Of a DNA stretch of 43,813 nucleotides, positions 11,179 through 42,788 are shown piece after piece. The position numbers were made by a program, and so were the translations under genes. Every line of letters begins with the position of its first letter. Position 1 is the stretch's first letter. Origin of the DNA: a virus; IMG/VR virus record IMGVR_UViG_3300027741_000121, positions 1 to 43,813 of that record; one strand, given 5' to 3'. The notes beneath the pieces are model-generated. The model searched no databases. It was not told the origin of the DNA and was given only the letters and a program-made list of their open reading frames with translations.

Positions 11179-11193
11179 AATAGGATATAGAGT

Positions 11194-12003
11194 ATGACAA
11201 CAGTTACATTACCATCAACGCTAAATTTCCCGTTGAACCCATCAATTGGGCAAACATATTCATTGGGTGGATTAACATGGAGATGGAATGGGTATGCTTG
11301 GGCCAAACTATCTCCAGCATTGATTGAAGCAGGAGGCGGCATCTCGTTATCAGTCAATACCACCACTGGCGCAACGGTGGTCAATAATACCGCTACCTTA
11401 CAGAGTTTGACAGCCAACGGGTCAACTACTACTAGTGTATTAACTGTGGCTAATACATCAAATTCAGTTTCAACCACTACTGGAGCTATTGTAGTTTCAG
11501 GCGGCGTCGGTGTGGGTGGTGATATATGGGCTAATAATATCCATGCTATTAGCACTGCGAACTCCGTGTCCACGGATACGGGAGCAGTTGTGGTATCAGG
11601 TGGAGTTGGTGTGGGTGGGGATGTTTGGGTTTATGGCAGAATTAATTCAGAAAGTGTCAAAATTAGTGATTCTATTATGGATTCTGCGTCTGTTAGTATA
11701 AATACCACGGCAACAACTATAGTTGATAGTTATTCGATTCTTCAGTTTAGATCGGCGAAATATTTGATACAAATTGATGAGGGGGATGGCCCAGCGGCAA
11801 ATTTTCAATTAATTGAACTTTTATTGCTGGTGGACAATGTAGGAACGGTGTATGCAACTGAATATGGGGTGCTAACATCACACGGGGATATGGGAAATTT
11901 TGCGGCGGAAGTCGATGTAGATAACATGCTTAATCTATATTTTACACCGACATTTGCTACAACTAAAGTTTTAAAACTCTTAAGAACGGGGATAACCCTA
12001 TAA
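11194..12003 (+). CDS. Short tail fibre-like protein sharing its C-terminal domain with the next gene
   Basis: A 269-residue protein. The N-terminus reads PSIGQTYSLGG then WRWNGYAWAKL, a small module seen in other virion proteins here. Two fibre repeats follow (IVVSGGVGVGGDIW and VVVSGGVGVGGDVW). The last ~90 residues (FRSAKYLIQID, LLLVDNVGTVYATEYGVL, LYFTPTFATTKVLKLLR) match the C-terminal domain of the 910-residue fibre immediately downstream. Shared ends like this suggest a common trimer cap or receptor tip. It is co-directional, with a 21-base gap to the next gene. Confidence 0.6.
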   Translation: MTTVTLPSTLNFPLNPSIGQTYSLGGLTWRWNGYAWAKLSPALIEAGGGISLSVNTTTGATVVNNTATLQSLTANGSTTTSVLTVANTSNSVSTTTGAIVVSGGVGVGGDIWANNIHAISTANSVSTDTGAVVVSGGVGVGGDVWVYGRINSESVKISDSIMDSASVSINTTATTIVDSYSILQFRSAKYLIQIDEGDGPAANFQLIELLLLVDNVGTVYATEYGVLTSHGDMGNFAAEVDVDNMLNLYFTPTFATTKVLKLLRTGITL

Positions 12004-12024
12004 CTTTATATAAAGGAAACTAAA

Positions 12025-14757
12025 ATGGCATTAACAGCAATCACAAGAGATTTTATAATTCAGCAAGGTGCGGTAATTAATGGCACACAAGCTGTAACAA
12101 GTTCTACAAATCAATCAAGTGCTTTACAAGTAAATAGCGGCGCCGCTATTTCACAAAACTTGATCGTTGGTACAACAGCGGACATTTATGGTGCAGTATC
12201 GTTACACGACGCTTTAACCGTAACCGGTGCAACGCAATTAAGCAGCTTGGGTGTTTCAGGTGCAGTAACATTTAGCAGCAATGTTTCAGTTGGTGGTGCA
12301 TTCAGCGTTACTAGCGCAACCACACTGAGCAGCACATTGGCAGTTACTGGTGCAACCAGTCTAACTGGTGCTTTGACAGCAAACGCAGCAACTTTTAACG
12401 GCAACCTATCAGTTTCTGGTTCAAACACATTGACCGTTGGATCTGGTGCTACCTCTTTGGGTGGGACATTAGCCGTTACTGGTGATACAACACTAAGCAG
12501 CACAACAGCAGCTACTAGTGCTGGCGCAGGTGCATTAAAAGTAACTGGCGGTGCTTATGTTGGTGGTAACTTGTTTGTTAACGATACAACTAATTCAACC
12601 GCAACTGGTATTGGTTCTATCGTCACCAAAGGCGGCGTTGGTATTGCCAAAGACTTGAACGTTGGTGGAAACACAGTAATCGGTGGTAACTTAACCGTTT
12701 TAGGTGTACAGACAGTATTCAATTCAACCAGCACCAGCGTAACCGATCCAGTTATCGATTTGGGAACAGCTCCAAACGGAGAAGAACTCACAACCGACGA
12801 CGGTTACAACAAGGGTTTGATCATTCACTATTATGATACAGTTAATAGTACAGCCAAGCACATGTTCTTTGGACGTAGCGATTCTGGCGCATCAAATGGC
12901 CGTTTTGTAGTTCGTAATGGTATTACTTCTAAAGACAATGCTGATCTAGTAAATAGCGGCGCATATGCTGGAATGGACATCGGTTCAATGATCGTTCATG
13001 ACACAACTGATGCTTCTGGCGCAACTGGCACAGGTGCATTGCAGGTTAATGGTGGTGCAAGTATCACCAGTTCATTGTATGTTGGTACTGATTTCAGTGC
13101 TGCTACAGTAAAAGCCCGCAATCTAACAGCAGGTCGTGTTTCATTTGCAGGAACTGGCGGTCAGTTAACAGATGACGCATCTCTAACATACAACTCAACC
13201 ACTGGTATCTTGACTGGTACAATCACACAAGCACAACACGCAACCAGCTTGAGTGGTGGTTCAACCAATGCTGTTCCTTATCAGACAGCTGCTGGTACAA
13301 CCGCATTTATCTCTCAAGGCAATCACACAGACTTGTTCTCTGTTGATGCATTTGGTGTTCCATATTGGAGAGCACAGTCTGACCTAGTAGTAGGTTACGC
13401 AACAACAGCATCCAACATTATGGGTGGTGGCAATGGTGAGATTCCATTCAATCCTTCAGCTGGTGTTACAAGCTTTGATTCTGGCTTGACATATGCTGGA
13501 TCTTTATTAACAGCTCCAACAATTTCTGTAAGCTCAATTACTGACGCAACCAACAGCACCAGTGGTGCATTGAAAGTTGCTGGCGGTGTTGGTATTGCCA
13601 AGAACTTGTATGTTGGCCAGTCTGTTAATATTGCTGGCGATTTGAATGTTGATGGCACAATCTACCTCAAAGGTGTTGGTCTTGATACAATTACCAGTAC
13701 AACTGGTACATTTGTTAATGTTCATATCAATGGCTCAGGAACAAGTTTAGTAGTAGACAACAATGCAACCATCACTGGCACAGCCACTGTTGGTGTATTG
13801 AATGCGACATCAGGTGCTATTACCAATAACTTACAAGCTGGTACATTGACAGTAAGCGGTACAGCAAATCTACAAACCACAAATGTCAGTTCATTGACAT
13901 CTACTGGAACAGTAACTGCTAACGCATTGACAGTTAACAACAATGCAACAGTTGGCGGAACATTCGGCGTAACCGGTGCAACCACATTGACTGGTGCCGT
14001 AACTGCTCAAGCTGGATTGACAGTATCTTCTGGATTGACATCCGTTGGTGTCTTGACAGCTGGTGCAACAACCGCTACATCATTGAATGTAACTGGCAGT
14101 TCAAGATTGGCTGACGTATCAGCTACATCATTGACAGTAAGTAGTGGATTGACTTCAGTTGCTGCATTGACTGCAGGTGTTACCACCGCTACATCAATGA
14201 ACGTAACTGGAAATGCACATATTGGCGGTTCATTGACCGTTGACGGTGGCATTACATTCAGTGCACCAGTAGACTTTACTGATACAACTGATGCAATTAA
14301 CAATGCTTCAACTGGTTCTGTTGTAGTATCTGGTGGCGTTGGTATTGCCAAGAGCTTGTCTGTTGGTGGTCCAATTTATGCTGGCCTCACCAACGCAGCA
14401 ACTACCGGAACAGCTGTATATGGCTTGTACATCAACGACACAGTACTAGCCAGCTACACAAGCCCAGTTATCACCGGCAGCTCCAAGCAAGACTTGGATC
14501 ATTTCAATGCTTCAAAATATCGTGGCGCACGTTATACAATTCAAGTTGTTGACGGCTCCAACGTTGAAATGACTGACATGATGATTGTTCATGATGGATC
14601 AAATGTGTACCTCAACCAATTTGGTACCATTTACAGTAACACACAGTTGGGTATTTTTGATGCTAACCTAACCGGCGGCGTAGTTACAATGACTTTCACA
14701 CCAGCAGCTGCAACATCAATGGTGATCAAAGTTGTTCGTATGACCATCACAGCTTAA
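12025..14757 (+). CDS. Large repetitive tail fibre (910 aa)
   Basis: A low-complexity Ala/Thr/Ser/Gly/Val fibre made of short beta repeats. One set reads as LTVTGATQLSSLGVSG-like units over residues 50-160. Another is the GGVGIAKDLNVGG-type repeat, present about five times. A 27-residue duplication lies near residues 665-730. A non-repetitive insert (DPVIDLGTAPNGEEL to HMFFGRSD, about residues 240-300) resembles a globular knob. The C-terminal domain (FNASKYRGARYTIQV, IVHDGSNVYLNQFGTIY, VIKVVRMTITA) matches the previous gene. It is followed by a strong terminator. The exact fibre identity cannot be assigned. Confidence 0.7.
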   Translation: MALTAITRDFIIQQGAVINGTQAVTSSTNQSSALQVNSGAAISQNLIVGTTADIYGAVSLHDALTVTGATQLSSLGVSGAVTFSSNVSVGGAFSVTSATTLSSTLAVTGATSLTGALTANAATFNGNLSVSGSNTLTVGSGATSLGGTLAVTGDTTLSSTTAATSAGAGALKVTGGAYVGGNLFVNDTTNSTATGIGSIVTKGGVGIAKDLNVGGNTVIGGNLTVLGVQTVFNSTSTSVTDPVIDLGTAPNGEELTTDDGYNKGLIIHYYDTVNSTAKHMFFGRSDSGASNGRFVVRNGITSKDNADLVNSGAYAGMDIGSMIVHDTTDASGATGTGALQVNGGASITSSLYVGTDFSAATVKARNLTAGRVSFAGTGGQLTDDASLTYNSTTGILTGTITQAQHATSLSGGSTNAVPYQTAAGTTAFISQGNHTDLFSVDAFGVPYWRAQSDLVVGYATTASNIMGGGNGEIPFNPSAGVTSFDSGLTYAGSLLTAPTISVSSITDATNSTSGALKVAGGVGIAKNLYVGQSVNIAGDLNVDGTIYLKGVGLDTITSTTGTFVNVHINGSGTSLVVDNNATITGTATVGVLNATSGAITNNLQAGTLTVSGTANLQTTNVSSLTSTGTVTANALTVNNNATVGGTFGVTGATTLTGAVTAQAGLTVSSGLTSVGVLTAGATTATSLNVTGSSRLADVSATSLTVSSGLTSVAALTAGVTTATSMNVTGNAHIGGSLTVDGGITFSAPVDFTDTTDAINNASTGSVVVSGGVGIAKSLSVGGPIYAGLTNAATTGTAVYGLYINDTVLASYTSPVITGSSKQDLDHFNASKYRGARYTIQVVDGSNVEMTDMMIVHDGSNVYLNQFGTIYSNTQLGIFDANLTGGVVTMTFTPAAATSMVIKVVRMTITA
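14017..14211 (+). repeat. Tandem 27-residue repeat inside the large fibre gene
   Basis: The in-frame segments 14017-14097 and 14131-14211 both encode LTVSSGLTSV, then LTAG and a TTATS tail, with a few substitutions, separated by 33 bases. It is a recent internal duplication in a fibre stem and a likely site of length variation. Confidence 0.75.
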
Positions 14758-14781
14758 TAGTTTTATTAGCTGAGTTTAAAG

Positions 14782-14809
14782 AAAACAGGACCTTCGGGTC
14801 CTGTTTTTT
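14782..14809 (+). terminator. Intrinsic terminator after the fibre block
   Basis: An 11-bp stem (AAAACAGGACC with GGTCCTGTTTT) closed by a TTCG tetraloop, running straight into a T-run. It is the strongest terminator in the window and lies 24 bases after the fibre stop codon. Confidence 0.92.
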
Positions 14810-14836
14810 ATTATGCTATAATTTATTTTTCCATGC

Positions 14837-14855
14837 TAAATATACCAACTAAATA
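14837..14855 (+). promoter_or_regulatory. Twin late-promoter-like elements
   Basis: TAAATA occurs at 14837-14842 and again at 14850-14855, 13 bases apart, just after the terminator and about 50 bases before the ATG at 14904. Either could drive the last fibre gene. Confidence 0.45.
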
Positions 14856-14903
14856 ACTTAGTACTTAATAGTTAGTGCGCCGTTACGTGGAAAGGGAAAC
14901 TAA

Positions 14904-15968
14904 ATGGCTTATTCTGTAGATTTTTTGGTAAAAAATGGGATTGTAGTATCAACTACTGCTACAATACAATCGGACGTTCAATCAACATCAACCAACACCG
15001 GTGCTTTACTAGTAACTGGTGGCGCTGGAATTGGAAAAAATTTAAGTGTAGGCGGCAATACTTACATGGACGGGGGATTATACGTTCAAGGTGTAGAAGT
15101 TGTAGCCGCAAATATTTCAACACATACTGGTGCGATAGGCGTAATTGGTCGAACTGGAGTAGATGGAACAGTATATGTCAATAATGTCACTATCGCCAGC
15201 AAAGATCAATCAATCTCAACTAATACCGGCGCACTACATGTAATAGGTGGAGCAGGGGTTGGACAAGATCTCTATGTAGGTGGCGATACTCACATACATG
15301 GAACATTATATGTAGACGGGCCTATTGTTCTGTTATCTGACGGGACCACATCTACTGTGGCCAATAGTACATCCACACTAAATGGTGGTTTTAATGGCAA
15401 TACCACATTTTTAGCTATTGATATCGCCAATGTGACATCTTCAACTTCGGTGACAACCGGCGCACTCACTGTGGCAGGCGGCGTTGGTGTTGTTGGTAGT
15501 TTATACGCAAGTGCTGTATATGATGATGGAAATAGAGCCCTTACTTCAATTGTGGCAGGCACGGGCACTAATGTAACGATAGATGGAACTACAGCAACAA
15601 TTAGCTTGAGCATTGATGATAATCAACCATTTAATGTAAAAAGCACAACGTCTGCTACATCAATATCCACTGGCGCATTTACCGTGGCAGGTGGAGCTGG
15701 AATTGGTCAAGATTTATATGTTGGCGGAAATATAATTGTAGATGGCGTGGTGGTCATTAATAGTCTTAGTGGAAATAATGGAGTACCATCAGGAAATTCA
15801 AGTAACATAACCACTGTTCCCATACACAGCTATGGTATATCTAGTGATACTGCCGGAATGATGGCATTCGATAGTTCATACGCCTATTATTGCACTGCTA
15901 ACTATGTCGATGACGCAACTACCATTTGGAGACGCATCGAGTGCCGGAACTTGGTAACATCAAAGTAG
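14904..15968 (+). CDS. Tail fibre-like protein (354 aa)
   Basis: It consists almost wholly of the shared fibre repeat. The N-terminus is followed by LLVTGGAGIGKNLSVGG, IGVIGRTGVDGTVYV, LHVIGGAGVGQDLYVGG, LTVAGGVGVVGSLYA and FTVAGGAGIGQDLYVGG. A ~60-residue C-terminal tip (NITTVPIHSYGISSDTAG to TIWRRIECRNLVTSK) is a small domain seen at the ends of other phage fibres. The leader GGGAAACTAA matches that of the 910-residue fibre gene, as expected for paralogues. It ends 9 bases inside the 3' end of the convergent Nudix gene. Confidence 0.65.
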   Translation: MAYSVDFLVKNGIVVSTTATIQSDVQSTSTNTGALLVTGGAGIGKNLSVGGNTYMDGGLYVQGVEVVAANISTHTGAIGVIGRTGVDGTVYVNNVTIASKDQSISTNTGALHVIGGAGVGQDLYVGGDTHIHGTLYVDGPIVLLSDGTTSTVANSTSTLNGGFNGNTTFLAIDIANVTSSTSVTTGALTVAGGVGVVGSLYASAVYDDGNRALTSIVAGTGTNVTIDGTTATISLSIDDNQPFNVKSTTSATSISTGAFTVAGGAGIGQDLYVGGNIIVDGVVVINSLSGNNGVPSGNSSNITTVPIHSYGISSDTAGMMAFDSSYAYYCTANYVDDATTIWRRIECRNLVTSK

Positions 15969-16400
15969 TTCTAGGAGTATATCTAATTTGGCTTTACTAG
16001 TACGATTGGATATACTGTTTTTAACGCCCTGATGCAGAGGCTTTGGCCAACAGTTAAAACTACACCAAGCATATCCAGAATGCTCCTCGTTTAAAGTTGG
16101 TACAAATTCTCGATCCACGATTAGTACATAGGTATTATATTGAAAAGTTTGATCATTAGATGTAAACAATTCTAGTGGAATTATTTTACGAATGGTGGGG
16201 GTTTTTCCAACTTCTTCTTGGATTTCTCTATGTAAACAGTCGATTAATGTGATATCTTGTGGCTCTTTTTTGCCCCCCACTAATCCCCAAGTATTGATAG
16301 ATTTCTTTTGAGTTCTCATTAAAAACAAGAATCGGCGAGTGTCCTTGGCCAAAAATAATCCACCACTGCCCACTACTGGCGTTACAAGATTAGTCTCCAT
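15960..16400 (-). CDS. Nudix hydrolase
   Basis: A 146-residue protein with a Nudix box at residues 42-65 (GGKKEPQDI then CLHREIQEEVG). It keeps the metal-binding REIQEE glutamates, with Asp at one usual Glu position. Nudix enzymes hydrolyse nucleoside diphosphates linked to another group; the substrate cannot be read from the sequence. The N-terminus GSGGLFLAKDTRRFLFLMR is the usual first strand pair. The start overlaps the 3' end of the gp15-like gene by 19 bases, so the two are co-transcribed from the minus strand. The 3' end converges on the fibre gene. Confidence 0.88.
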   Translation of the reverse strand: METNLVTPVVGSGGLFLAKDTRRFLFLMRTQKKSINTWGLVGGKKEPQDITLIDCLHREIQEEVGKTPTIRKIIPLELFTSNDQTFQYNTYVLIVDREFVPTLNEEHSGYAWCSFNCWPKPLHQGVKNSISNRTSKAKLDILLELL

Positions 16401-17767
16401 GTTGCCCTGTCATAAATTTTTTCAAAACTTTTACTCCACCAATTGTCTTCCCACTTATATTGTACACCAGTATAGGAATTAGTGATATAGGTAACAGCGG
16501 TTTCTACTTTAGAATTAAAAATTATGTTCCACGTGGAACCATTCCATTGAATAATATCATTGGCAGATGCCTGAAAATCAGTTCCATCATGGTTTTTCCA
16601 AGCAGCTGGTCCATCGTATGGCTGCACAGTTTGGTTCATATTAATGTCTTCTAAAATCAAATATCTAGTCCCAGCCACTGGATTATTTGGATTAAATGTT
16701 TCTGGATCTATGATAGCGTCCACTGTTCCCCGACCATCTATAATAGTGTTTCCGGGTATGGTATCTGGGTTAAAACTCAACATCATTTTTGTTTCATCTA
16801 GTGGATTTAGGCTTATATAAGCTATAATTTCTCCGCCATTTGGTTTAGTTAATCTCAATTGACTTAGCCCAGCACGGAATTGTCCTGGATATAAGTCCAA
16901 TATTTTATACCAACTAGTAGAGTTTTGTCCCGAACTGACATCTAATACATCACCTTGGCTAGTATTGGTAACCAAAGATGCGGAATTATCTAATACCAAT
17001 AGATCAAAATTTCCCGGAGTGACCACCACTGTGGTGTCTGGTATTCCAAACATTTCTATGGCATCTGGGGTAGAAAAATCATTTTGAATTATATTTTGGC
17101 TTACTGCAAAAACATTGGCAATTATCTTGGTAATAATCCCCATTTGTTTGACTTTGGCGGGTGGCGTGATCCAGATGGGAGAAGTAAATGTCAAGTTAGC
17201 AATATCAATATCTTGCTCTAGCCCTTGTGGAACTTGTCTACTGCTCCAAGTTTGAGTAGCCATTTCTAATACGGTAAGACTGGTCCAGTCAATATAATTG
17301 TCTGTGGTCTGTAACTCCATGCTAGGATTAAACAACGCGGCAAGTTGTTCCCAGAGTTGTAATTTTTGTTGAGTATTAGTAGTCCACATGTCTAACGCAA
17401 AGGTTATTTTATATGGACTGGGCATTATGCGTTCTACAGTATAATTCGCACCTTGTGTGTTGAGGTATTCTTGTCCTTGGTCGTCAAACGCTCTTTCTCT
17501 TACTTGTACTTTGTTAACATATGTTGGCTCTTGTATCCTAGATCTATCATATTCTAAATTTTTGATATAACATGCAAAAAAAGGAGCACTTGGTATGGTG
17601 TTTTCACTATTTTTCTTCAAAATATTGCCAACTTGGCGATTTAAATCACCATATCTTACTGGCACCTGAACTAACTGCCCACGCGCATCCATATAACTAA
17701 AGTTACTAACTACTCGCATAAATTGAGTTAAATATCGGGCAACTTGTCCGTCGTATGCATAATCCAT
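16382..17767 (-). CDS. 15: Tail completion / sheath stabiliser, gp15-like
   Basis: A 461-residue protein whose N-terminal ~240 residues follow the T4 gp15 pattern: YLTQFMRVVSNF, VQVPVRYGDLNRQ, FFACYIKNLEYDRSR, then MPSPYKITFALDMWT. In T4, gp15 caps the tail tube and sheath and joins the tail to the head neck. It is much longer than T4 gp15 (about 270 aa). The extra C-terminal ~200 residues include PVAGTRYLILEDI and IIQWNGSTWNIIF, the small module also seen in sheath and gp14. It lies 2 bases downstream of the gp14-like gene. The call rests on pattern and neighbourhood. Confidence 0.7.
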   Translation of the reverse strand: MDYAYDGQVARYLTQFMRVVSNFSYMDARGQLVQVPVRYGDLNRQVGNILKKNSENTIPSAPFFACYIKNLEYDRSRIQEPTYVNKVQVRERAFDDQGQEYLNTQGANYTVERIMPSPYKITFALDMWTTNTQQKLQLWEQLAALFNPSMELQTTDNYIDWTSLTVLEMATQTWSSRQVPQGLEQDIDIANLTFTSPIWITPPAKVKQMGIITKIIANVFAVSQNIIQNDFSTPDAIEMFGIPDTTVVVTPGNFDLLVLDNSASLVTNTSQGDVLDVSSGQNSTSWYKILDLYPGQFRAGLSQLRLTKPNGGEIIAYISLNPLDETKMMLSFNPDTIPGNTIIDGRGTVDAIIDPETFNPNNPVAGTRYLILEDINMNQTVQPYDGPAAWKNHDGTDFQASANDIIQWNGSTWNIIFNSKVETAVTYITNSYTGVQYKWEDNWWSKSFEKIYDRATWRLIL

Positions 17768-22329: not shown

Positions 22330-25300
22330 ATGGCAACAAATTTAAATTCACCCGGCGTAAAAGTATCCGTAATCAACGAGAGTTTTTATACTCCCGCAGC
22401 TCCCGGAACAGTACCACTAATTTTTGTCGCTACAGCCCAAGATAAAAGTAATGCATCTGGAACAGGCGTAGCACAAGGAACCACAGCAGCAAATGCTGGA
22501 ACGGTCTGGACTATTACAAGTCAGCGAGATCTTACCGATACATTTGGAACCCCTGTATTTGTCACTGACAACAGTGGAAATCCAGTTCATGGATCAGAAC
22601 TCAACGAATATGGTTTACAGGCAGCATATAGTTTCTTGGGTGCTAGCTCAAGTGCATATGTAGTGCGTGCCGATGTAGATTTAAGCCAGTTATCTGGTAG
22701 CACCAGTATCCCAACTGGAACACCAGTTGCTGGAACTTACTGGGTTGACACAACCGATACACTATATGGTATTAATGAGTGGAACGCCTCTGGTTCTGGT
22801 TCATTTACCGTAAAAACACCAGCAGTAGTCATCAATAACGACACCACTGGCACCATGGCGACATTAGAAAGCAATGTGTATGTGCCCAAAGTAGGTGTTG
22901 GTAGTAAAGGTGATTATGCCATGGTTGTTACTTCAAACAACACCAACCAACTTTATTATAAAAATGATTCAAATGCTTGGGTTTTGGTCCAAGACGGGTT
23001 TGATGGTGGCAAGAAAGTAACAATTAGTCCACATTATAACTATCCAACATTTACAACCAGTACACACACTGGCAGTGTTTGGGTCAAGACAACAACTCCT
23101 GGATTTGGAGCTGACTGGGTTGTCAAGTATTATAACGGTAGCACAGATTCATGGGCATCAGTCAGTGCGCCTATCTACTCAAGTACTCGCCAAGCTCTGG
23201 AAAAAATTGATTTGGTTGGTGGAGGAAAAAATATTCCTGTTGGAACATTGTTTATTGAGTCCAATTACAATCATACCGGAACAATCAATACTAGCACACA
23301 AGTTGCTGCCAGCTTCAAGATTTGGCGCCGTAATAGCACTAGTCCAACCACAGTGATCAGTGCTAGTTCAACCGCAACCAGTTTGACCAACAGCATATTT
23401 ACAATCAGAGAGTCATTGGCTAATTCTACTGATTGGAGTTCTGTAAAAACAGTTAATGTTTTTGGAAGTTCAACTGCAAGCATCGCAGAACAAATTCCTG
23501 CCGCTGTTAGTGCAGCCGGTTTGGTAAATGTTTCAGCTAGCTATGATGCTGCCACACAAAAAGTAACATTCAAACATGCTCTTGGTGGTGATTTTGAGAT
23601 GAACGATGGAACAAATTATCCATTAGGCGCAGTTGGTTTAACAGCATATAACATGGTGACCAAGTCTGGCACAGCTAATCTTTACACACCACCAAGTGGT
23701 GACGGCGATTATGACTATTTGGCCACCAACTGGAAACCATTAAGTTATGTTGCTACCACATCCCAGCCAACCAGCAAGCCAGTTGATGGCACATTATGGT
23801 ATGACGTTAATTTAAGCGAAGTTGACATCATGATTAATGATGGCACAACATGGCGCGGTTATGGAAAAGTTTACGGTAATACCGATGCAAATGGTCCAAT
23901 CGTTGCAGCATTGGCTCCTAAATCACATGTTGATGGCAGTGATTTGGTTGATGGCGACATTTGGGTTAGCACTGCTGACACAGAAATGTACGGAAAAGAA
24001 GTTTATGTATATGACGGCAACTCTCTGTCATGGGTATTACAAGATGTAACAGATCACACAAGTCCAAATGGATGGGTATTTGCAGATGCACGTTGGTCTA
24101 CTTCTGGCGCAGATACTGCTCCCGGAAATATTCAACTAATGCGGATGAGTGATTATCTAGATCCAGATGCTCCAGATCCAGCACTGTATCCAAAAGGCAC
24201 ACGCCTATGGAATACACGTCGCAGTGGTTTCAACATCAAGAAATATCGTGCAGGATATATTGATATCAACGCTAATCTTGGTTTGAATATCCGCTATCAA
24301 AATGATGTCATGGAAGGATATAATGCAGATCGCTGGGTTTCTATTGATTCATTAAACGAAGATGGATCAGGCAAATTTGGACGTCATGCACAGCGTGCAG
24401 TGGTAGTCAGCGCATTCAAGAGCATGATCGACACAAACTTAGCAGTTCGTGATACCGACACCTTGGTGTTTAATTTGATTGCTACCCCTGGCTATCCAGA
24501 AGCTATCCAGAACATGATTGCATTTAACGTAGATCGTGGTCAAACTGCATTTGTTGTTGGAGACACACCATTCCGTCTACAACCAACAGGCACCGCACTA
24601 GCTGCATGGGGCAATAATACAGCCGGTGCATTTGACAATGGAGATACTGGCGCTGTTAGTTATGATAACTTTATGGGTATGTTCTATCCAAGTGGTTACA
24701 CTAATGACAACACTGGTGCAAATATTGTTGTTCCACCTAGCCACATGATGTTGCGTACTATTGCCAATAGTGATGCCAAGAGTTATGTATGGTTTGCTCC
24801 AGCCGGTATTCGTCGCGGTGGTGTGGACAATGCCACTTCCGTTGGATATCTAGACAGCGTTGGTGAATTCAAAACAGTGTCATTGCATGAAGGATTACGC
24901 GATGTCATGGCAACGATCAAGGTCAATCCAATTGCAACCATTCCTGGAGTTGGTATCGTCAACTTTGGACAATATACCCGCGCCAATGCTGCAAGTGCCA
25001 TGGATCGGATTAATGTTGTTAGACTAATTGCATATCTGCGCCGTCAATTATCAATTTTAGCAAAACCATTCTTGTTTGAACCCAATGACGCACAAACCCG
25101 CGCAGAAATTAAAGCTGCCGCAGAAAGTTTGATGTTGGAATTGGTTGGTCAGCGTGGCTTGTATGATTATTTGGTGGTATGTGACACCAGTAACAATACA
25201 CCAGCACGTATTGATCGCAGCGAGTTGTGGATGGATATTGCAATTGAACCAGTAAAAGCAGCAGAATTCATTTACATTCCATTACGTATATTGAATACCG

Positions 25301-25338
25301 GAGCAATTGCTGCTGGTAATCTTGGTTCAAACGGTTAA
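22330..25338 (+). CDS. 18: Tail sheath protein, gp18-like, enlarged
   Basis: A 1002-residue protein, against about 660 in T4. The N-terminus (NSPGVKVSVINESFY, then GTVPLIFVATAQDK) and the C-terminal domain (INVVRLIAYLRRQLS, AIEPVKAAEFIYIPLRIL) are the conserved sheath core that contracts around the tube. The extra length lies at about residues 125-620. It includes four small modules of one pattern (GTYWVDTT, GSVWVKTT, GTLWYDVN, GDIWVSTA, each followed by Y and a G..W element). These insertions probably face outward as decoration. A strong ribosome site and late promoter precede it. Confidence 0.88.
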   Translation: MATNLNSPGVKVSVINESFYTPAAPGTVPLIFVATAQDKSNASGTGVAQGTTAANAGTVWTITSQRDLTDTFGTPVFVTDNSGNPVHGSELNEYGLQAAYSFLGASSSAYVVRADVDLSQLSGSTSIPTGTPVAGTYWVDTTDTLYGINEWNASGSGSFTVKTPAVVINNDTTGTMATLESNVYVPKVGVGSKGDYAMVVTSNNTNQLYYKNDSNAWVLVQDGFDGGKKVTISPHYNYPTFTTSTHTGSVWVKTTTPGFGADWVVKYYNGSTDSWASVSAPIYSSTRQALEKIDLVGGGKNIPVGTLFIESNYNHTGTINTSTQVAASFKIWRRNSTSPTTVISASSTATSLTNSIFTIRESLANSTDWSSVKTVNVFGSSTASIAEQIPAAVSAAGLVNVSASYDAATQKVTFKHALGGDFEMNDGTNYPLGAVGLTAYNMVTKSGTANLYTPPSGDGDYDYLATNWKPLSYVATTSQPTSKPVDGTLWYDVNLSEVDIMINDGTTWRGYGKVYGNTDANGPIVAALAPKSHVDGSDLVDGDIWVSTADTEMYGKEVYVYDGNSLSWVLQDVTDHTSPNGWVFADARWSTSGADTAPGNIQLMRMSDYLDPDAPDPALYPKGTRLWNTRRSGFNIKKYRAGYIDINANLGLNIRYQNDVMEGYNADRWVSIDSLNEDGSGKFGRHAQRAVVVSAFKSMIDTNLAVRDTDTLVFNLIATPGYPEAIQNMIAFNVDRGQTAFVVGDTPFRLQPTGTALAAWGNNTAGAFDNGDTGAVSYDNFMGMFYPSGYTNDNTGANIVVPPSHMMLRTIANSDAKSYVWFAPAGIRRGGVDNATSVGYLDSVGEFKTVSLHEGLRDVMATIKVNPIATIPGVGIVNFGQYTRANAASAMDRINVVRLIAYLRRQLSILAKPFLFEPNDAQTRAEIKAAAESLMLELVGQRGLYDYLVVCDTSNNTPARIDRSELWMDIAIEPVKAAEFIYIPLRILNTGAIAAGNLGSNG

Positions 25339-30315: not shown

Positions 30316-30344
30316 AAAAAACCCCACACCATGTGGGGTTTTTT
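30316..30344 (+). terminator. Intrinsic terminator upstream of gp17
   Basis: AAAAAACCCCACA pairs with TGTGGGGTTTTTT across a 3-base loop, with a T-run. It lies 24 bases after the upstream stop and abuts the gp17 late promoter. Confidence 0.9.
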
Positions 30345-30345
30345 G

Positions 30346-30352
30346 TTAAATA
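30346..30352 (+). promoter_or_regulatory. Late promoter just before gp17 (TTAAATA)
   Basis: TTAAATA ends 8 bases before ATG 30361, predicting a leader of about 3 bases and no ribosome site. Confidence 0.55.
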
Positions 30353-30360
30353 ATATAACT

Positions 30361-31947
30361 ATGGGTAAATCAAAACAAGAACTGCAGCTAATCAAACCTG
30401 CGCATACCGTTAGAACATGGACTGAAGAAGATCTTCAGGATATTGCAAAGTGCCAAGATCCTGTTAAAGGACCAGCATATTTCTTAAATAACTTCTTTTA
30501 TATTCAACATCCGAAGCAGGGGAAGATCCGTTATAAACCATTTGACTATCAAAAGAAACTTTTGAACTGTTATCATACTAGTCTATACGCCGTATCCTTA
30601 CTTGGAAGACAATTAGGCAAGACGACAACTGCCGTTGGTTACCTACTTTGGTACGCCATGTTCAATGATGATTCTACCATATTGATTGCAGCACACAAAT
30701 ACACTGGTGCACAAGAAATTATGGAACGATTGCGGTTTGCGTATGAATCATGCCCGGATCATATACGTGCTGGTGTAACTGATTATAATAAACAAAGTAT
30801 TAGATTTGAAAACGGTAGCCGTATTATGGCCCAAACTACAACTGAAACTACGGGTCGTGGTATGTCATTGTCATTGATTTTCCTAGATGAGTTTGCTTAT
30901 GTTGAACCACATATTGCCACAAATTTCTGGACATCATTGAGTCCAACATTGGCCACCGGTGGTAAATGTATTATTACATCCACCCCAAATAGTGATGAAG
31001 ATCAGTTTGCACAAATTTGGAAAGAAGCGAATGATATGGTGGATGAGTATGGAAATACTACTACAATTGGTAAAAATGGATTCACACCGTTTAAGGCTAT
31101 TTGGAGTGCGCACCCGGATCGTGATGAAAAATGGGCTGCTGGTGAACGCGGAAGATTGGGCAATGAACGATTCTTGCGGGAACATGAATGTGAATTTTTG
31201 GTATTTGCCGAAACACTTATCGATTCTGTTAAATTATCTGAATTAAAACCAACAGAACCAATTATGAAATTGGGTCAATGTCGTTGGTTCAGAAGAATCC
31301 ATGCAAAATCAACTTATGTTGTGGCATTGGATCCCAGTATGGGAACTGGCGGAGATCCGGCAGCATTGCAAGTAATAGAGTTACCTAGTCTAGAACAGGT
31401 GGCAGAATGGACCAATAATACCACGCCTATACAAGGCCAAGTTAAAATATTACGTGACGTTTGCAAGTATATTGAAGAAGAATGTAAGAATAAAGATACT
31501 GTCCCTAGCATTTATTACTCTATAGAAAACAATGCTATTGGTGAAGCGGCATTGATCGCAATCAATGAAATGGGCGAGGAAAGCATACCTGGATTCTTTT
31601 TGAGCGAACCACTCAAGAAAGGGCATGCCAGAAAATTTCGCAAGGGATTTAACACCACACATAACAGTAAAATGGCAGTGTGTTCTAAGTTAAAACACTT
31701 GGTTGAAACCGATAGATTGACCATTCATAGTCAAAGTTTAATAAGTGAACTCAAATTATATATTGCCAAAGGCATAACATTTGGTGGCAAGGGCAAAACA
31801 CACGATGACTTGGTCAGTGCTTTGTTACTGGCTTTGCGCATGATTATGTTGTTACAGGATTGGGATCCAGAAATCTACGACAAGATGCGTGAGGAAACTG
31901 ATGAGGTGTTTGAACTGCCGATGCCGATCTTTATCAGTTCGATATAG
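30361..31947 (+). CDS. 17: Large terminase subunit, gp17-like
   Basis: A 528-residue packaging motor. The ATPase domain has Walker A GRQLGKTTTAVGYL near residue 81, Walker B LIFLDEFAYV near 171 and the coupling motif ITSTPNSDEDQF. The nuclease domain has VALDPSMGTGGDPAALQVI near 320, ENNAIGEAAL near 388 and THDDLVSALLLALRM near 479, supplying the RNase-H-fold acidic residues. It cuts concatemers and drives DNA into the prohead through the portal. An upstream ATG at 30331 lies inside the terminator hairpin, so the ATG at 30361 is the start. The transcript is predicted to be nearly leaderless. Confidence 0.95.
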   Translation: MGKSKQELQLIKPAHTVRTWTEEDLQDIAKCQDPVKGPAYFLNNFFYIQHPKQGKIRYKPFDYQKKLLNCYHTSLYAVSLLGRQLGKTTTAVGYLLWYAMFNDDSTILIAAHKYTGAQEIMERLRFAYESCPDHIRAGVTDYNKQSIRFENGSRIMAQTTTETTGRGMSLSLIFLDEFAYVEPHIATNFWTSLSPTLATGGKCIITSTPNSDEDQFAQIWKEANDMVDEYGNTTTIGKNGFTPFKAIWSAHPDRDEKWAAGERGRLGNERFLREHECEFLVFAETLIDSVKLSELKPTEPIMKLGQCRWFRRIHAKSTYVVALDPSMGTGGDPAALQVIELPSLEQVAEWTNNTTPIQGQVKILRDVCKYIEEECKNKDTVPSIYYSIENNAIGEAALIAINEMGEESIPGFFLSEPLKKGHARKFRKGFNTTHNSKMAVCSKLKHLVETDRLTIHSQSLISELKLYIAKGITFGGKGKTHDDLVSALLLALRMIMLLQDWDPEIYDKMREETDEVFELPMPIFISSI

Positions 31948-31954: not shown

Positions 31955-31961
31955 CTTGACT

Positions 31962-34289
31962 ATGCCAGCATTACAACTTATATCACAAGATTTATTTGAC
32001 AAAGTACGTAGCCGTTTTGAAAACCTACAGATGGGTGATTCAGAGGGCGCGGTTACTATTGATCCAGCCCAAGCCAGATTCTTTGAATTTGACTTTGTCA
32101 TGGAAAACGTTGATCTTGGGCGGGTAAGTATCAGTATCAACGACGGTGGATTAAAAGTATATTATAGTCAGGGTATTACCGAAAACAAAGACGACGATGC
32201 TAAAAGTGCTTGGTATTCATTCCTCAAAGAAATGAGAATGTTTGCCATGCGTAGATTGTTGGCATTTGATACTCGTGATATTGCAAAAAGACATTTGGAT
32301 AAAAACGATTACGCTCATTTGGTGGCTAAGACTAATAAAGAACAAGGAAATAACATGAACGAATCACGTTGGAATCACAAAAGACAATCTAGTAAAACTA
32401 GCCGTGCTGTCAGTGGAAAAACTGAAGTTATTGTGCGCCATCATGCCCCAGTGGAAGAAACTTATGCTGGAGCGCGTAGTAAACGTAAGAATATTAAAGC
32501 TATTTTCATTCAGAATCGTGATGGTGAACGTTTCAAATATCCATTTATCCATACAGCTGGTGCATTTGCCATGGCACAACACGTTGATCATGGTGGGGTT
32601 CCACATGATCCAGCCGGTAAAGCTATTATTCGTATGAGTGAAGATATTGCTAAATTATGTGAATTCCATAAGAGTGTTCAGAATACTAGTTTGCATGATA
32701 GTGATAATACTCGTGAGATTACAGAGCGCACTTCTCAGCAATTGCAACATTTGCGTAGCAAAGTAGAATCATTGGGTAAACGCCATCACTATGAGAATTG
32801 GATTGCTGAATTTAATCAATCACCACTCATGGATGAAGAAATGGGTGAGTTAGACGAAGTCACCATGGAAGAATACAAGTCTAAATTTACTGAAACCAAT
32901 TTCAAAGAAGATTTGGCACAGTATTTTCCATTGATTCATCGTATCATGCAAGAGACCAGTACTGTGGATTTGGAAGAGTATGTTGAAGAAGGACATACGG
33001 TAGTCCCAAATATTAATCGTGAACGATACACTGACCTATCTCACGAAGGATTAGAGGGTCCATTCAGATCAAAGAATGGGCACATTGTATATTATGATCC
33101 CAAAGTAGGCAAGTATTATGATCGTGATAGTGACATGTATATTAGTCATGATGACTGGGATGAAATGAATCGTGATACTTTACGTAACGACGCATTTGAA
33201 GAATTTGAAATGTGGGCAGAAGACGTAGAACAGAACAAATTAACAGACGATCAAATTGCTGAATTAAAAGAAAAATTGCCAGAATTAGAGCAAAGTGGGT
33301 GGGGCCCAGATGGATCATTTCCAGTTCCTTTTTTCCAAGAATTGGGCGTCGATAACCAAGATTTAGAAGACGATTTAAAAGATGCTTGGGACAAGCAGGG
33401 ATATCCCGATGCAAAAACTCCAGTAGATGTTTTCAAAAATTGGTTAAAAACACTTTATAAACCAGAAGAATATACTGGTGTATTGGGCGAATTGGGGATT
33501 GCTGATCAAGCACCGCAACAGCAGATGACCCAACCAGCTCCGGCACCTGCGGCTCAACAGCCAGCAGCAGAAAGCTCAGCGGGAATTGCCACAGTGCATG
33601 GTATAATGAGAGAAATGGATACTTTTCCAAATAGTGCAATGGAAAAATATGCCGAAGATGACGGCGATAACGAACATGAAGTCGCCAAAGTTGTCAAGGA
33701 TTTTGTATTAAGTCGTTATAATGCAGACAATAAAGATGTTGGTCCATTTATGGCACCTGAAAATATCATTGTTGATGCAGCAAAGCAAGCTACTGAAAAA
33801 TATGGTAATTCTGTAGATGAATATGCCAAGTCTATTGCAGAAAAGTTCATTCAAGAAAAAACCATGGAATGGCAAAAGAAACATCATAAACGTGTGGAGG
33901 AACTTGCCCCACATGGAAAACAAGGGGGAGACCACAAAATGTTTAATTTAGACGAAAGAAGTGAAGAATTTAAATCAGAAATTGAGATTGACGATTTTAA
34001 ACCATGGCCTAAGTTGCAGCGACTTATAGACGATAACATAATAGAACTTCCACAAAATGCTGAAGAGTTGGCTGTTGAATTTACTAAAATGGGCAGAGAT
34101 CCAGAGCTTGCCACTAAATTGGCTGATAAAATTTTTAGTAAAATTAAACCAAGTTCTGATATGAGTTCACATCATGGGGCAAATATTTGGGATGAACCAG
34201 AAGATACCGTTGAGCCAGACATGCCTGAATTGGACTCAGATGAAGACGATGCCGAGTTGGCAAGAATTCGGCATTTAGCTGGACGTTAA
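31962..34289 (+). CDS. Large hypothetical protein (775 aa), possible head/packaging-associated
   Basis: It sits directly behind gp17 under its own late promoter. Residues 1-110 form an alpha/beta domain (FFEFDFVMENVDLGRVSISI, split in beta strands, then KVYYSQGITEN). The middle has FKYPFIHTAGAFAMAQHVDHGG, and around residue 365 there is a small WW-like element (VYYDPKVGKYYDRDSDMY). Residues 525-545 are a Gln/Pro/Ala linker. The C-terminal third is helical and acidic, ending ELARIRHLAGR. Such large proteins occur near the terminase in aquatic T4-like phages; the function is unknown. No catalytic motif is visible. Confidence 0.55.
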   Translation: MPALQLISQDLFDKVRSRFENLQMGDSEGAVTIDPAQARFFEFDFVMENVDLGRVSISINDGGLKVYYSQGITENKDDDAKSAWYSFLKEMRMFAMRRLLAFDTRDIAKRHLDKNDYAHLVAKTNKEQGNNMNESRWNHKRQSSKTSRAVSGKTEVIVRHHAPVEETYAGARSKRKNIKAIFIQNRDGERFKYPFIHTAGAFAMAQHVDHGGVPHDPAGKAIIRMSEDIAKLCEFHKSVQNTSLHDSDNTREITERTSQQLQHLRSKVESLGKRHHYENWIAEFNQSPLMDEEMGELDEVTMEEYKSKFTETNFKEDLAQYFPLIHRIMQETSTVDLEEYVEEGHTVVPNINRERYTDLSHEGLEGPFRSKNGHIVYYDPKVGKYYDRDSDMYISHDDWDEMNRDTLRNDAFEEFEMWAEDVEQNKLTDDQIAELKEKLPELEQSGWGPDGSFPVPFFQELGVDNQDLEDDLKDAWDKQGYPDAKTPVDVFKNWLKTLYKPEEYTGVLGELGIADQAPQQQMTQPAPAPAAQQPAAESSAGIATVHGIMREMDTFPNSAMEKYAEDDGDNEHEVAKVVKDFVLSRYNADNKDVGPFMAPENIIVDAAKQATEKYGNSVDEYAKSIAEKFIQEKTMEWQKKHHKRVEELAPHGKQGGDHKMFNLDERSEEFKSEIEIDDFKPWPKLQRLIDDNIIELPQNAEELAVEFTKMGRDPELATKLADKIFSKIKPSSDMSSHHGANIWDEPEDTVEPDMPELDSDEDDAELARIRHLAGR

Positions 34290-34303: not shown

Positions 34304-35089
34304 ATGTTTAAAAAAATTATAGTATTGGGTCTGCTGTTAGTTGGTGAATTGACATGGGCAGCAGATCCAATAGCTTGGGACAAAATTCGTGCTAGTTTGT
34401 TTCAAGATCGTCACATTGAAGTAGATTCTGGAAATATAATACAATTAGAAGCACCCAATCGTGCCGAAGATGCAGCTATTGTGCCTGTATCGATTCATAC
34501 TGAGATTCCAGCAAACTCAAAATTACACATAGTTAAAACTTGGTTAATTATTGATCAAAATCCATCTCCGATTGCCGCTATGTTTACATTTTTGTCAGAT
34601 AATACCCCATCAGACATAGAAACTAGAGTTAGGGTAAACGAATATACATTGATTCATGCTGTTGCAGAGTTAGATGATGGCAGTTTATATATGGCTAGCA
34701 AATTCGTAAAGGCATCTGGGGGTTGTTCAGCTCCAGCTGGTAAAGATCCCGCTGAAGCTAGTAAATCCTTAGGAAAAATGAAAATACTTGTTGAAAAAAT
34801 GCCGGTAGTTGGTAAGCCATCTCTTGCACAATTGATGATTAGTCATCCTAATGATTCTGGATTGGCATTTGATCAATTAAGTCGTAATTATACACCAGCA
34901 CATTATGTTCGAGAAATTACAATAAGTTACAATAATGTGCCTATGATAAAAGCAGATCTAGATATTTCTATTAGTGAAAACCCTAATTTTAGATTTTATT
35001 TTATCCCAAAAAGTTCTGGTGAACTGTCAGTTGATGTGATAGACTCACAAAATCTAAACTTTAAACAAGCCATCAAAATTGATTTGTGA
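34304..35089 (+). CDS. SoxYZ-like periplasmic carrier (quinoprotein-dehydrogenase-associated type), auxiliary metabolic gene
   Basis: A 261-residue exported protein. The signal peptide FKKIIVLGLLLVGELTWA has a cleavage site before ADPIAW. The SoxY-like half has LFQDRHIEVDSGNIIQLEAP, RAEDAAIVPVSIH, WLIIDQNPSPIAAMF, TRVRVNEYTLIHAVAEL and the carrier motif KASGGCSAPAGKD with its single Cys. The SoxZ-like half has AQLMISHPNDSGLAFDQLS, YVREITISYN and SISENPNFRFYF. This fused carrier family is known from gene clusters of PQQ-dependent methanol/alcohol dehydrogenases in methylotrophs. It lies 14 bases after the previous gene with no clear ribosome site. The exact metabolic role, in host or phage, is unproven. 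Confidence 0.85.
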   Translation: MFKKIIVLGLLLVGELTWAADPIAWDKIRASLFQDRHIEVDSGNIIQLEAPNRAEDAAIVPVSIHTEIPANSKLHIVKTWLIIDQNPSPIAAMFTFLSDNTPSDIETRVRVNEYTLIHAVAELDDGSLYMASKFVKASGGCSAPAGKDPAEASKSLGKMKILVEKMPVVGKPSLAQLMISHPNDSGLAFDQLSRNYTPAHYVREITISYNNVPMIKADLDISISENPNFRFYFIPKSSGELSVDVIDSQNLNFKQAIKIDL

Positions 35090-35158: not shown

Positions 35159-35187
35159 TTGCAAAGATAAATAAGATCGTGTATAGT
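35159..35187 (+). promoter_or_regulatory. Sigma70-type promoter for gp32, overlapping a late element
   Basis: TTGCAA (35159-35164), a 17-base spacer, then TATAGT (35182-35187). A late-type GATAAATA (35166-35173) lies inside the spacer. A second possible -10 box, TATAAT, is at 35145-35150. Expression of the ssDNA-binding protein both early and late would fit its role. Confidence 0.6.
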
Positions 35188-35206
35188 CTCAACTATGCAC
35201 ATTGTT

Positions 35207-35234
35207 TCACGTGGTCAGTGGGCTACGTGAGAAT
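35207..35234 (+). promoter_or_regulatory. Leader hairpin of the gp32 gene
   Basis: TTCACGT (35208-35214) pairs with ACGTGA (35227-35232), extended by a wobble, with a 12-base loop. It is inside the predicted 80-base leader. T4 gp32 represses its own translation by binding a structured leader, so this is a candidate operator. The ribosome site GGAGA follows closer to the ATG. Confidence 0.45.
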
Positions 35235-35274
35235 GGCACAATCAACTTAGGCATCTTATTATGGAGAAATTATC

Positions 35275-36267
35275 ATGGCAACATTAGCAGAAATTCGCGC
35301 AAAATTGCAGCAAAACTCACAACAAAGCACCGGCAACAGTGGTGACAATCAAATCTATGCACACTGGAACATTGCAGAAGGCCAAACGGCCACTGTACGT
35401 TTTCTTCCAGATGGCGATCCGTCAAATACCTTTTTTTGGATTGAGCGTGCACTGATCAAACTTCCATTTGCTGGGGTTATTGGTGACACCAGTTCTAAAC
35501 CAGTTACTGTACAAGTACCTTGCATGGAAATGTGGGGCGAGACATGTCCTATTCTAACAGAAGTTCGTCCTTGGTTCAAAGACAAAGAAATGGAAGTGTT
35601 GGGTCGTCAATATTGGAAAAAGAAGAGTTATCTATTCCAAGGGTTTGTGGTCGATTCCAAGTATCAGGAAGAAAGCGTTCCTGAAAATCCAATTCGTCGT
35701 TTTATCATCGGCGCCCAGATCTTTAATATCATCAAAGATGCTATCATGAATCCAGAGATCGATGAGATTCCAACTGATTCCGTTCGTGGTTTAGATTTCA
35801 AGATCAACAAGACCAGCAAAGGCGGTTATGCTGATTATTCTACCAGCACATGGTCACGTCGTGAGCGTTCATTGAGTAATGAAGAGCTTGATGCGATTGA
35901 TCAATTTGGATTGTTTGATCTCAAAAACTTCTTGCCCAAAAAGCCCACACATGCTGAAATCAAGATCATCAAAGAAATGTTTGAGGCCAGTGTTGCGGGT
36001 GAAGCATTTGACATGGATCGTTGGGGTCAAGCATTTAAGCCTGCCGGCATGGGTGGCAGTGGTGCTGCTACTGGTTCTCCAGTGGCTTCATCGGCAAAAC
36101 CCGTAGCTGCACGAGTTGCAGCAGCGGCAGTGGATGAAGACGATGAAGCTTTTGTTCCAGCAGATGCATCTTCGGACAAAACCGTGACTAAATCAGCAGA
36201 GTCTACTACTCCCGGAACGCGTGCAGCAGATATCATTGCTGCAATCAAAAAACGCCAAACCGCTTAA
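35275..36267 (+). CDS. 32: Single-stranded DNA-binding protein, gp32-like
   Basis: A 330-residue protein. The basic N-terminal segment (LAEIRAKLQQ) corresponds to the cooperative-binding LAST-type region. The OB-fold core has ATVRFLPDGDPSNTFFW, CMEMWGETCPI, YLFQGFVVDSKY, NPIRRFIIGAQIFNII and FKINKTSKGGYADYSTSTW. Only two Cys (83 and 91) sit where T4 has three Cys and a His, so zinc binding may be altered. The linker after residue 250 is Ala/Ser/Gly-rich, followed by an acidic stretch (VDEDDEAF) typical of the tail that binds replication partners. It is directly upstream of uvsX. Confidence 0.92.
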   Translation: MATLAEIRAKLQQNSQQSTGNSGDNQIYAHWNIAEGQTATVRFLPDGDPSNTFFWIERALIKLPFAGVIGDTSSKPVTVQVPCMEMWGETCPILTEVRPWFKDKEMEVLGRQYWKKKSYLFQGFVVDSKYQEESVPENPIRRFIIGAQIFNIIKDAIMNPEIDEIPTDSVRGLDFKINKTSKGGYADYSTSTWSRRERSLSNEELDAIDQFGLFDLKNFLPKKPTHAEIKIIKEMFEASVAGEAFDMDRWGQAFKPAGMGGSGAATGSPVASSAKPVAARVAAAAVDEDDEAFVPADASSDKTVTKSAESTTPGTRAADIIAAIKKRQTA

Positions 36268-36283
36268 TCATAGGGATATTTAA

Positions 36284-37351
36284 ATGCCTAACAAAGCCTT
36301 TGATATTTCAAAGTTTAGGAAATCTATTACCAAGTCCATTGATGGACTTGGTGTAGGTTTTAATGATCCAGATACATGGATTGGTACCGGAAATTATGCA
36401 TTAAATTATTTAATTTCTGGACAATTTGATCGTGGTGTTCCTCTGGGCAAAGTTTCGATTTTCTGCGGAGAGTCCGGATCTGGAAAGTCGTACTTATGTT
36501 CTGGGAACATAATCAAAAATGCGCAAGATCAAGATATTTTTGTAGTGTTAGTCGATACAGAAAATGCATTAGATGAGAGTTGGCTACATGCGTTGGGCGT
36601 TGATACATCTGAAGATAAACTACTCAAACTCAACATGGCCATGATTGATGACGTTGCTAAAACTATCAGCGAATTCATCAAGCAATATAAAGCGCAACCT
36701 GAAGAAGAACGTCCCAAGGTGTTATTTGTAATTGATAGTTTGGGTATGTTACTAACACCAACTGATATCAACCAGTTTGAGTCTGGAGATATGAAAGGTG
36801 ATATGGGACGCAAAGCCAAGGCATTACGAGCATTGGTCACCAATTGTGTCAACACATTTGGAAATTTGAATATTGGAATGGTTTGTACCAACCATACCTA
36901 TGCTAGTCAGGACCCTTATGATCCTGATGACCGGATTAGTGGTGGTGCTGGATTTATCTATGCGAGTTCAATTGTAGTTGCAATGAAAAAATTGAAACTC
37001 AAAGAAGATGAAGATGGCAACAAGGTAGCTGATGTATTGGGGATTCGTGCCGGTTGCAAGATTATGAAAACCCGATATAACAAACCGTTTGAAACCATTC
37101 AGGTCAAGATTCCATACGAACAAGGAATGAGCCCGTATTCTGGACTGTTTGACATGCTGGAAGCCAAAGGGTTTGTTACCAAGGAAGGCAATCGCTATAC
37201 ATATATAGACCTAAATGGTGAAATTCACAAATATTTCCGCAAAGAATGGAATGGCAATGAAAACGGTATTTTAGATTTGGTCATGCAAGAATTTGTGGAA
37301 AAATCTAAACTACTTGCTCCGGTCCCGGTATCGATGGAATCGGAAGATTAA
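36284..37351 (+). CDS. uvsX: RecA-like recombinase UvsX
   Basis: A 355-residue recombinase. Walker A GESGSGKS lies near residue 62; VVLVDTENALDESWL follows near 88; Walker B VLFVIDSLGML lies near 147; the L2 region and TNHTYASQDPYDPDDRISGG follow, and then SSIVVAMKKLKL. UvsX forms filaments on ssDNA with gp32 and UvsY and drives strand exchange and recombination-dependent replication. Length is close to the T4 protein (391 aa). It starts 16 bases after gp32 with a weak GGGATAT ribosome site. Confidence 0.95.
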   Translation: MPNKAFDISKFRKSITKSIDGLGVGFNDPDTWIGTGNYALNYLISGQFDRGVPLGKVSIFCGESGSGKSYLCSGNIIKNAQDQDIFVVLVDTENALDESWLHALGVDTSEDKLLKLNMAMIDDVAKTISEFIKQYKAQPEEERPKVLFVIDSLGMLLTPTDINQFESGDMKGDMGRKAKALRALVTNCVNTFGNLNIGMVCTNHTYASQDPYDPDDRISGGAGFIYASSIVVAMKKLKLKEDEDGNKVADVLGIRAGCKIMKTRYNKPFETIQVKIPYEQGMSPYSGLFDMLEAKGFVTKEGNRYTYIDLNGEIHKYFRKEWNGNENGILDLVMQEFVEKSKLLAPVPVSMESED

Positions 37352-42428: not shown

Positions 42429-42788
42429 ATGACACAGTTATCTGGATTTGTAGAAAAAGGTTGGGGGCATGAATTAATTTGGTGTACCACAGACAAGTAT
42501 TGTGGGAAACTATTAAATTTTAATAAAGGTGCCAAATTCAGCATGCACTTTCATGCGGAAAAAGATGAAACTTGGTATGTGTTATCTGGAGAATTTTTAG
42601 TCAGATTTATCGACACCAAAACAGCACAGATCAGGGAAAAGACATTAATCGTGGGTGAAACTTGGCACAATCCTCCACTTCTACCACATCAAGTCGTGTG
42701 CGTATGTGCGGGCACATTGATTGAAGTCAGCACAGTGGATAGTGTAGAAGATAATTATCGGGTCATGCCCGGAGATAGTCAGAAATAA
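42429..42788 (+). CDS. Cupin-fold protein
   Basis: A 119-residue single-domain cupin. Motif 1 is FSMHFHAEKDETWYVLSGEF (residues of about 38-57), with His, His and Glu as likely metal ligands. Motif 2 includes NPPLLPHQVVCV, with the last His. WGHELIWCTTDKYCGKLL before motif 1 is the usual first strand pair of sugar-isomerase-like and epimerase-like cupins (mannose-6-phosphate isomerase C-terminal type). The substrate is not deducible; nucleotide-sugar or small-molecule handling is possible. Its TAA overlaps the next ATG. Confidence 0.8.
   Translation: MTQLSGFVEKGWGHELIWCTTDKYCGKLLNFNKGAKFSMHFHAEKDETWYVLSGEFLVRFIDTKTAQIREKTLIVGETWHNPPLLPHQVVCVCAGTLIEVSTVDSVEDNYRVMPGDSQK

Follow-up and report, generated by a model that had tools for sequence, protein, structure and literature searches.

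The window, the whole analysed stretch of 43,813 nucleotides of IMG/VR record IMGVR_UViG_3300027741_000121, encodes a tail sheath, tail tube, tail-sheath stabiliser, terminase, gp32, UvsX, helicase and tail fibres. By gp32 and terminase its closest isolates are jumbo phages of 284-490 kb (Phosso, PA5oct-like phages and Atu_ph07), and these comparisons place the window in a jumbo, T4-related myovirus lineage with Phosso and PA5oct as kin. Since the closest isolates are of this size, the 43.8-kb record is probably a piece of a jumbo genome. The features relevant here are the following:

30331..31947, + strand: terminase large subunit, the lineage marker (PHROG 36964, E 5e-124; 53% to PA5oct-like phages)
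31956..34289, + strand: conserved upstream gene of structural type, 777 aa, bordering the insertion on its left side (matches PHROG 13484, annotated as a virion structural protein; order kept in relatives)
34304..35089, + strand: fused SoxYZ-like carrier, 261 aa, TIGR04557 (profile score, SoxY and SoxZ Pfam matches, AlphaFold2 model, PDB fold matches)
34304..34360, + strand: probable Sec signal peptide of the carrier, residues 1-19 (sequence inspection: MFKK, hydrophobic core, TWA; low pLDDT)
34709..34747, + strand: carrier arm KASGGCSAPAGKD with the sole motif cysteine, C141, in a presumably flexible loop joining both halves (conserved in all homologues; pLDDT about 64 at residues 141-150)
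35159..35274, + strand: intact conserved gp32 leader, right flank of the insertion, with promoter-like TTGCAA-17-TATAGT and two hairpins (comparison with relatives)
35275..36267, + strand: gp32-like single-strand DNA-binding protein (PHROG 1192, E 8e-65)
36284..37351, + strand: UvsX-like recombinase (PHROG 97, E 1e-69)

No Rfam families, tRNA or tmRNA were found in the window, and the T4 late-promoter motif TATAAATA was rejected as a feature, its frequency being not above chance. The tail sheath (22330-25338) is, with 1002 aa, far longer than usual T4-type sheaths. A small protein at 42429-42788 matched a PHROG annotated as cysteine dioxygenase and is either a second possible sulfur-related gene or merely a generic cupin.

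The carrier gene is genuine and correctly placed in TIGR04557. The ORF starts with ATG and spans exactly 34304-35089, and its 261-aa product scored 264.4 bits with the TIGR04557 model (E 6e-79, cut-off 140), covering profile positions 1-225 of 226; 14 control genomes gave no match to the same model. Both Pfam domains were above cut-off, SoxY with 109 bits (residues 31-141) and SoxZ with 83 bits (residues 169-256). The arm KASGGCSAPAGKD corresponds to residues 136-148, and within it GGCSAP is invariant across a six-member carrier alignment and GGC is invariant in wider alignments. An AlphaFold2 model built from a 26-row alignment reached a mean pLDDT of 87.6, and in Foldseek its halves matched the Paracoccus pantotrophus SoxY and SoxZ structures as well as the SoxYZ found in the SoxB complex. 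A BFVD fold search returned generic beta-sandwich matches only. An earlier note on this DNA had described a fused carrier of this family with its motif at this position, flanked by a structural-type gene upstream and a gp32-like protein downstream, and ORF, profile, Pfam and alignment results agree with it on all these points. The signal peptide in that description is also credible, as the N-terminus MFKKIIVLGLLLVGELTWAAD reads by eye as a Sec signal.

Two trees, one with 98 carriers and one with 45, unite the window protein with a bacterial protein from genome G172 and a protein shared by phage contigs L008 and L009 in one clade, with support of 99 and 100/99, nested inside betaproteobacterial carriers. 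Judged from this placement, the window carrier is of betaproteobacterial origin. The G172 protein is the closest bacterial homologue (64% identity), and G172 is a betaproteobacterium whose PNPase shows 74% to Methyloversatilis/Rhodocyclales-like genomes. It encodes three PQQ methanol/ethanol dehydrogenases above cut-off, and a relay Zn hydrolase adjoins its carrier gene. G172 also has a separate SoxY with a C-terminal GGCGG, located apart from the carrier and scoring 120 bits, slightly below cut-off; in sequence the window gene groups with the fused carrier of G172 and not with this SoxY. With about 67% to both Phosso and Vibrio phage 2.275.O, the capsid protein of L009 is of the broad jumbo group to which the window also belongs, but the L009 carrier gene sits at a different location, where its neighbours are capsid genes and an HNH-like gene. 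The numerous carriers of marine phages make up a separate, distant group in the tree, and because they lie so far from the window clade at least two acquisitions by phages are likely. The carrier of phage contig L338 is on a very long branch and its placement in the tree is unreliable.

The distribution of the family among viruses was charted in several searches. An alignment scan of 2.9 million viral contigs yielded 46 fused-carrier loci and a true SoxY alignment scan of the same contigs at matched sensitivity yielded none, both scans relying on short conserved patterns that divergent members may escape. A single-protein scan of the viral contigs for the carrier gave no match, and carrier homologues were found neither in 50,697 deposited phage records nor in PHROGs. 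When the distinct viral versions were scored per protein, TIGR04557 was the best match for 12 of 12 and its cut-off was passed by 10, the remaining two reaching 134 and 136 bits; none of the 12 passed the cut-off of true SoxY or SoxZ. TIGR04557-type genes are present in T4-like phages, and the statement of the earlier note that the fused family is not found in T4-like genomes was wrong. The viral carriers found here show GGCS and CC features.

In bacteria the context of the carrier is PQQ-dependent alcohol oxidation. Full bacterial neighbourhoods, a sample biased towards the best matches to the query, contained a quinoprotein-relay Zn hydrolase in 41 of 46 cases and a PQQ dehydrogenase in 26 of 46. 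The Sox(YZ) fusion of Hyphomicrobium denitrificans sits within a PQQ alcohol-oxidation gene set (PMC11582611). In Pseudomonas putida, RB-TnSeq gave the bacterial carrier gene little phenotype when lanthanides were absent; proposed roles are that the carrier shields PQQ from sulfur nucleophiles or that it takes part in dehydrogenase maturation or redox control (PMC12997753). The window carrier resembles the TIGR04557 carriers of bacteria, such as PP_2677 of P. putida, in its full-length match, SoxY and SoxZ fusion, probable signal peptide and GGCSAP arm, but resides in a phage genome and has no adjacent Zn hydrolase or PQQ dehydrogenase. No dehydrogenase or relay Zn hydrolase gene was found anywhere in the window, and neither a dehydrogenase nor a Zn hydrolase was seen near any of 46 other carrier-bearing viral loci within the flanks examined. 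A methanol dehydrogenase search of the viral contigs returned six loci. On L338 (IMGVR_UViG_3300025120_009955), positions 8944-17744 bring together, inside 9 kb, genes for a methanol dehydrogenase (608 bits), a formate dehydrogenase alpha subunit (885 bits) and a carrier of the TIGR04557 family (197 bits); this 72-kb contig has a phage-type exonuclease, NrdA and virion and tail-fibre-like genes. Curli-like, DnaK and GroEL genes are also present on it. The connection to PQQ alcohol oxidation that had been suggested from the window alone is supported by the two bacterial partners and by this phage pairing.

Phages with other parts of C1 oxidation have been described. The Methylophilaceae phages of Lake Baikal (PMC7678222) are likewise T4-like with methanol-oxidation genes, but they carry the enzyme itself (methanol dehydrogenase) or pqqA and no sox gene is mentioned, whereas the window fragment shows the accessory carrier only. 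The large freshwater phages bearing pmoC (PMC7674155) similarly combine a large phage with one C1-oxidation part; the gene is a different one, and sox and methanol dehydrogenase are not mentioned.

These results make it probable that the gene is a resident auxiliary metabolic gene for a PQQ-associated SoxYZ-like carrier, sustaining alcohol oxidation of the host in infection. In infected cells, additional carrier encoded by the phage would be exported to the periplasm, where the arm cysteine C141 may bear a covalent sulfur or thiol intermediate. Because the phage fragment supplies the carrier alone, the protein would need to rely on partners of the host, and it would team with the host's own quinoprotein-relay Zn hydrolase. 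Periplasmic alcohol oxidation and the electron supply could in this manner be kept going while host genes are shut off, and productive periplasmic alcohol oxidation during infection is the likeliest benefit to the phage. Points that speak against this reading are the lack of dehydrogenase and Zn hydrolase genes in the window and in the examined flanks of the 46 other viral loci, the weak ribosome-binding site of the gene, the slight RB-TnSeq phenotype and the bias of the bacterial sample. A methylotrophic host is plausible, consistent with the three PQQ methanol/ethanol dehydrogenases in the genome of the nearest homologue.

In Kieft et al. 2021 (PMC8190135) fused soxYZ genes of phages, with a ggCs motif and a CC motif that varies, were interpreted as serving thiosulfate oxidation, and on this view the phage would boost the Sox pathway of its host. 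The fused gene, the T4-like/myovirus contigs and the ggCs motif are common to the published genes and the window copy, which are very probably one family, although the window copy belongs to a jumbo lineage, is without the CC motif and is here assigned to PQQ alcohol oxidation. As the GGCS and CC features are found in both sets, the viral carriers reported here are very probably the same class as the published phage soxYZ. A thiosulfate-oxidation carrier in the window is nevertheless rather unlikely. It would be in line with the published interpretation and with a carrier fold that is the same as that of SoxYZ, and the true SoxY of G172 means that the host group may have a Sox system. True SoxYZ (TIGR04488/TIGR04490; PDB 2ox5, 4uwq), which has the fold of both halves and the carrier cysteine in common with the window protein, consists however of separate proteins with a C-terminal GGCGG arm, whereas the window carrier is fused, has an internal GGCSAP arm and scored 72 bits with TIGR04488 (true SoxY, cut-off 125) and 55 bits with TIGR04490 (true SoxZ, cut-off 76) versus 264 bits with TIGR04557. 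The lack of true SoxY in the scanned viral contigs, the PQQ oxidation context of bacterial carriers and the pairing of carrier and methanol dehydrogenase in one phage likewise argue against thiosulfate.

PQQ and XoxF are unmentioned in PMC8190135. Because all 12 viral versions fit TIGR04557 best, no viral true SoxY was found and L338 combines methanol dehydrogenase with the carrier, the evidence leans towards a re-reading in which the published phage soxYZ class has an accessory role in PQQ alcohol/methanol oxidation and was taken up two or more times by T4-related and jumbo phages, which would act on methanol/alcohol and not on thiosulfate oxidation. Fused phage soxYZ is accordingly a kind of gene already published, and what is new is its proposed re-reading from thiosulfate to PQQ alcohol oxidation, for which sequence and gene context give good support. 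Phage soxYZ genes feed published estimates of viral sulfur oxidation, which would instead refer to methanol/alcohol oxidation should the genes act for PQQ alcohol dehydrogenases. The stand-alone carrier copies of phages could in addition help to work out what the fused carrier does in bacteria.

The order of a gene like the 777-aa one followed by gp32 is kept in Phosso and in 76 related records with both flanks found, and in none of these 76 relatives was a SoxYZ gene located between the flanks. The gap between the flanks was 142 nt in the median, at most 250 nt in 62 relatives and more than 500 nt in 13. Other cargo occupies some of the gaps above 500 nt, for example one gene of 258 aa in L217, a pair of genes in L153 and a set of three in L137, and in others a long structural-looking gene fills the space. 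The start codon of the window carrier lies 14 nt past the stop of the upstream gene. With empty syntenic sites, an intact gp32 leader and other cargo in relatives, the carrier is a one-gene insertion into a cargo site of a conserved phage locus. The gene is almost certainly a resident of a genuine phage genome, which agrees with the earlier description of it as a resident auxiliary gene.

A resident gene might still be a neutral or recent passenger, or have taken on a different function in the periplasm, for instance relief of redox or copper/thiol stress, without effect on alcohol oxidation. Its restriction to this phage among the relatives having the locus, its weak ribosome-binding site and the lack of partner genes in the window would fit such a role, which is nevertheless quite improbable: every family residue is intact, the frame is open despite 36% divergence from the closest bacterial copy, dN/dS values of mostly 0.1-0.35 show purifying selection on the carriers of other phages, and the carrier is present in several independent phage groups. 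An assembly chimera, in which a bacterial gene was mis-joined to a phage contig, would account for a lone gene missing from all 76 relatives, but it is extremely improbable, as it requires one mis-join directly after the upstream gene's stop and a second ahead of the conserved gp32 leader, which is intact, the GC content of the gene is 35% (window average 39.6%) whereas its bacterial homologues have a median of 64%, its operon partners did not accompany it, related carriers are present in other phages and different cargo is found at the identical spot in relatives. A resident carrier that sustains PQQ-dependent alcohol oxidation is hence preferred for this locus.

The cargo site has the coordinates L153:4786-6538, L137:1820-4051, L217:10783-11559 and L257:10094-10933 in relatives. 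The gp32 leader RNA at 35178-35240 forms two tandem hairpins that are kept in 12 related phages, with compensatory changes in 10 of 20 pairs; they have no match in Rfam and are a candidate regulatory element of gp32.
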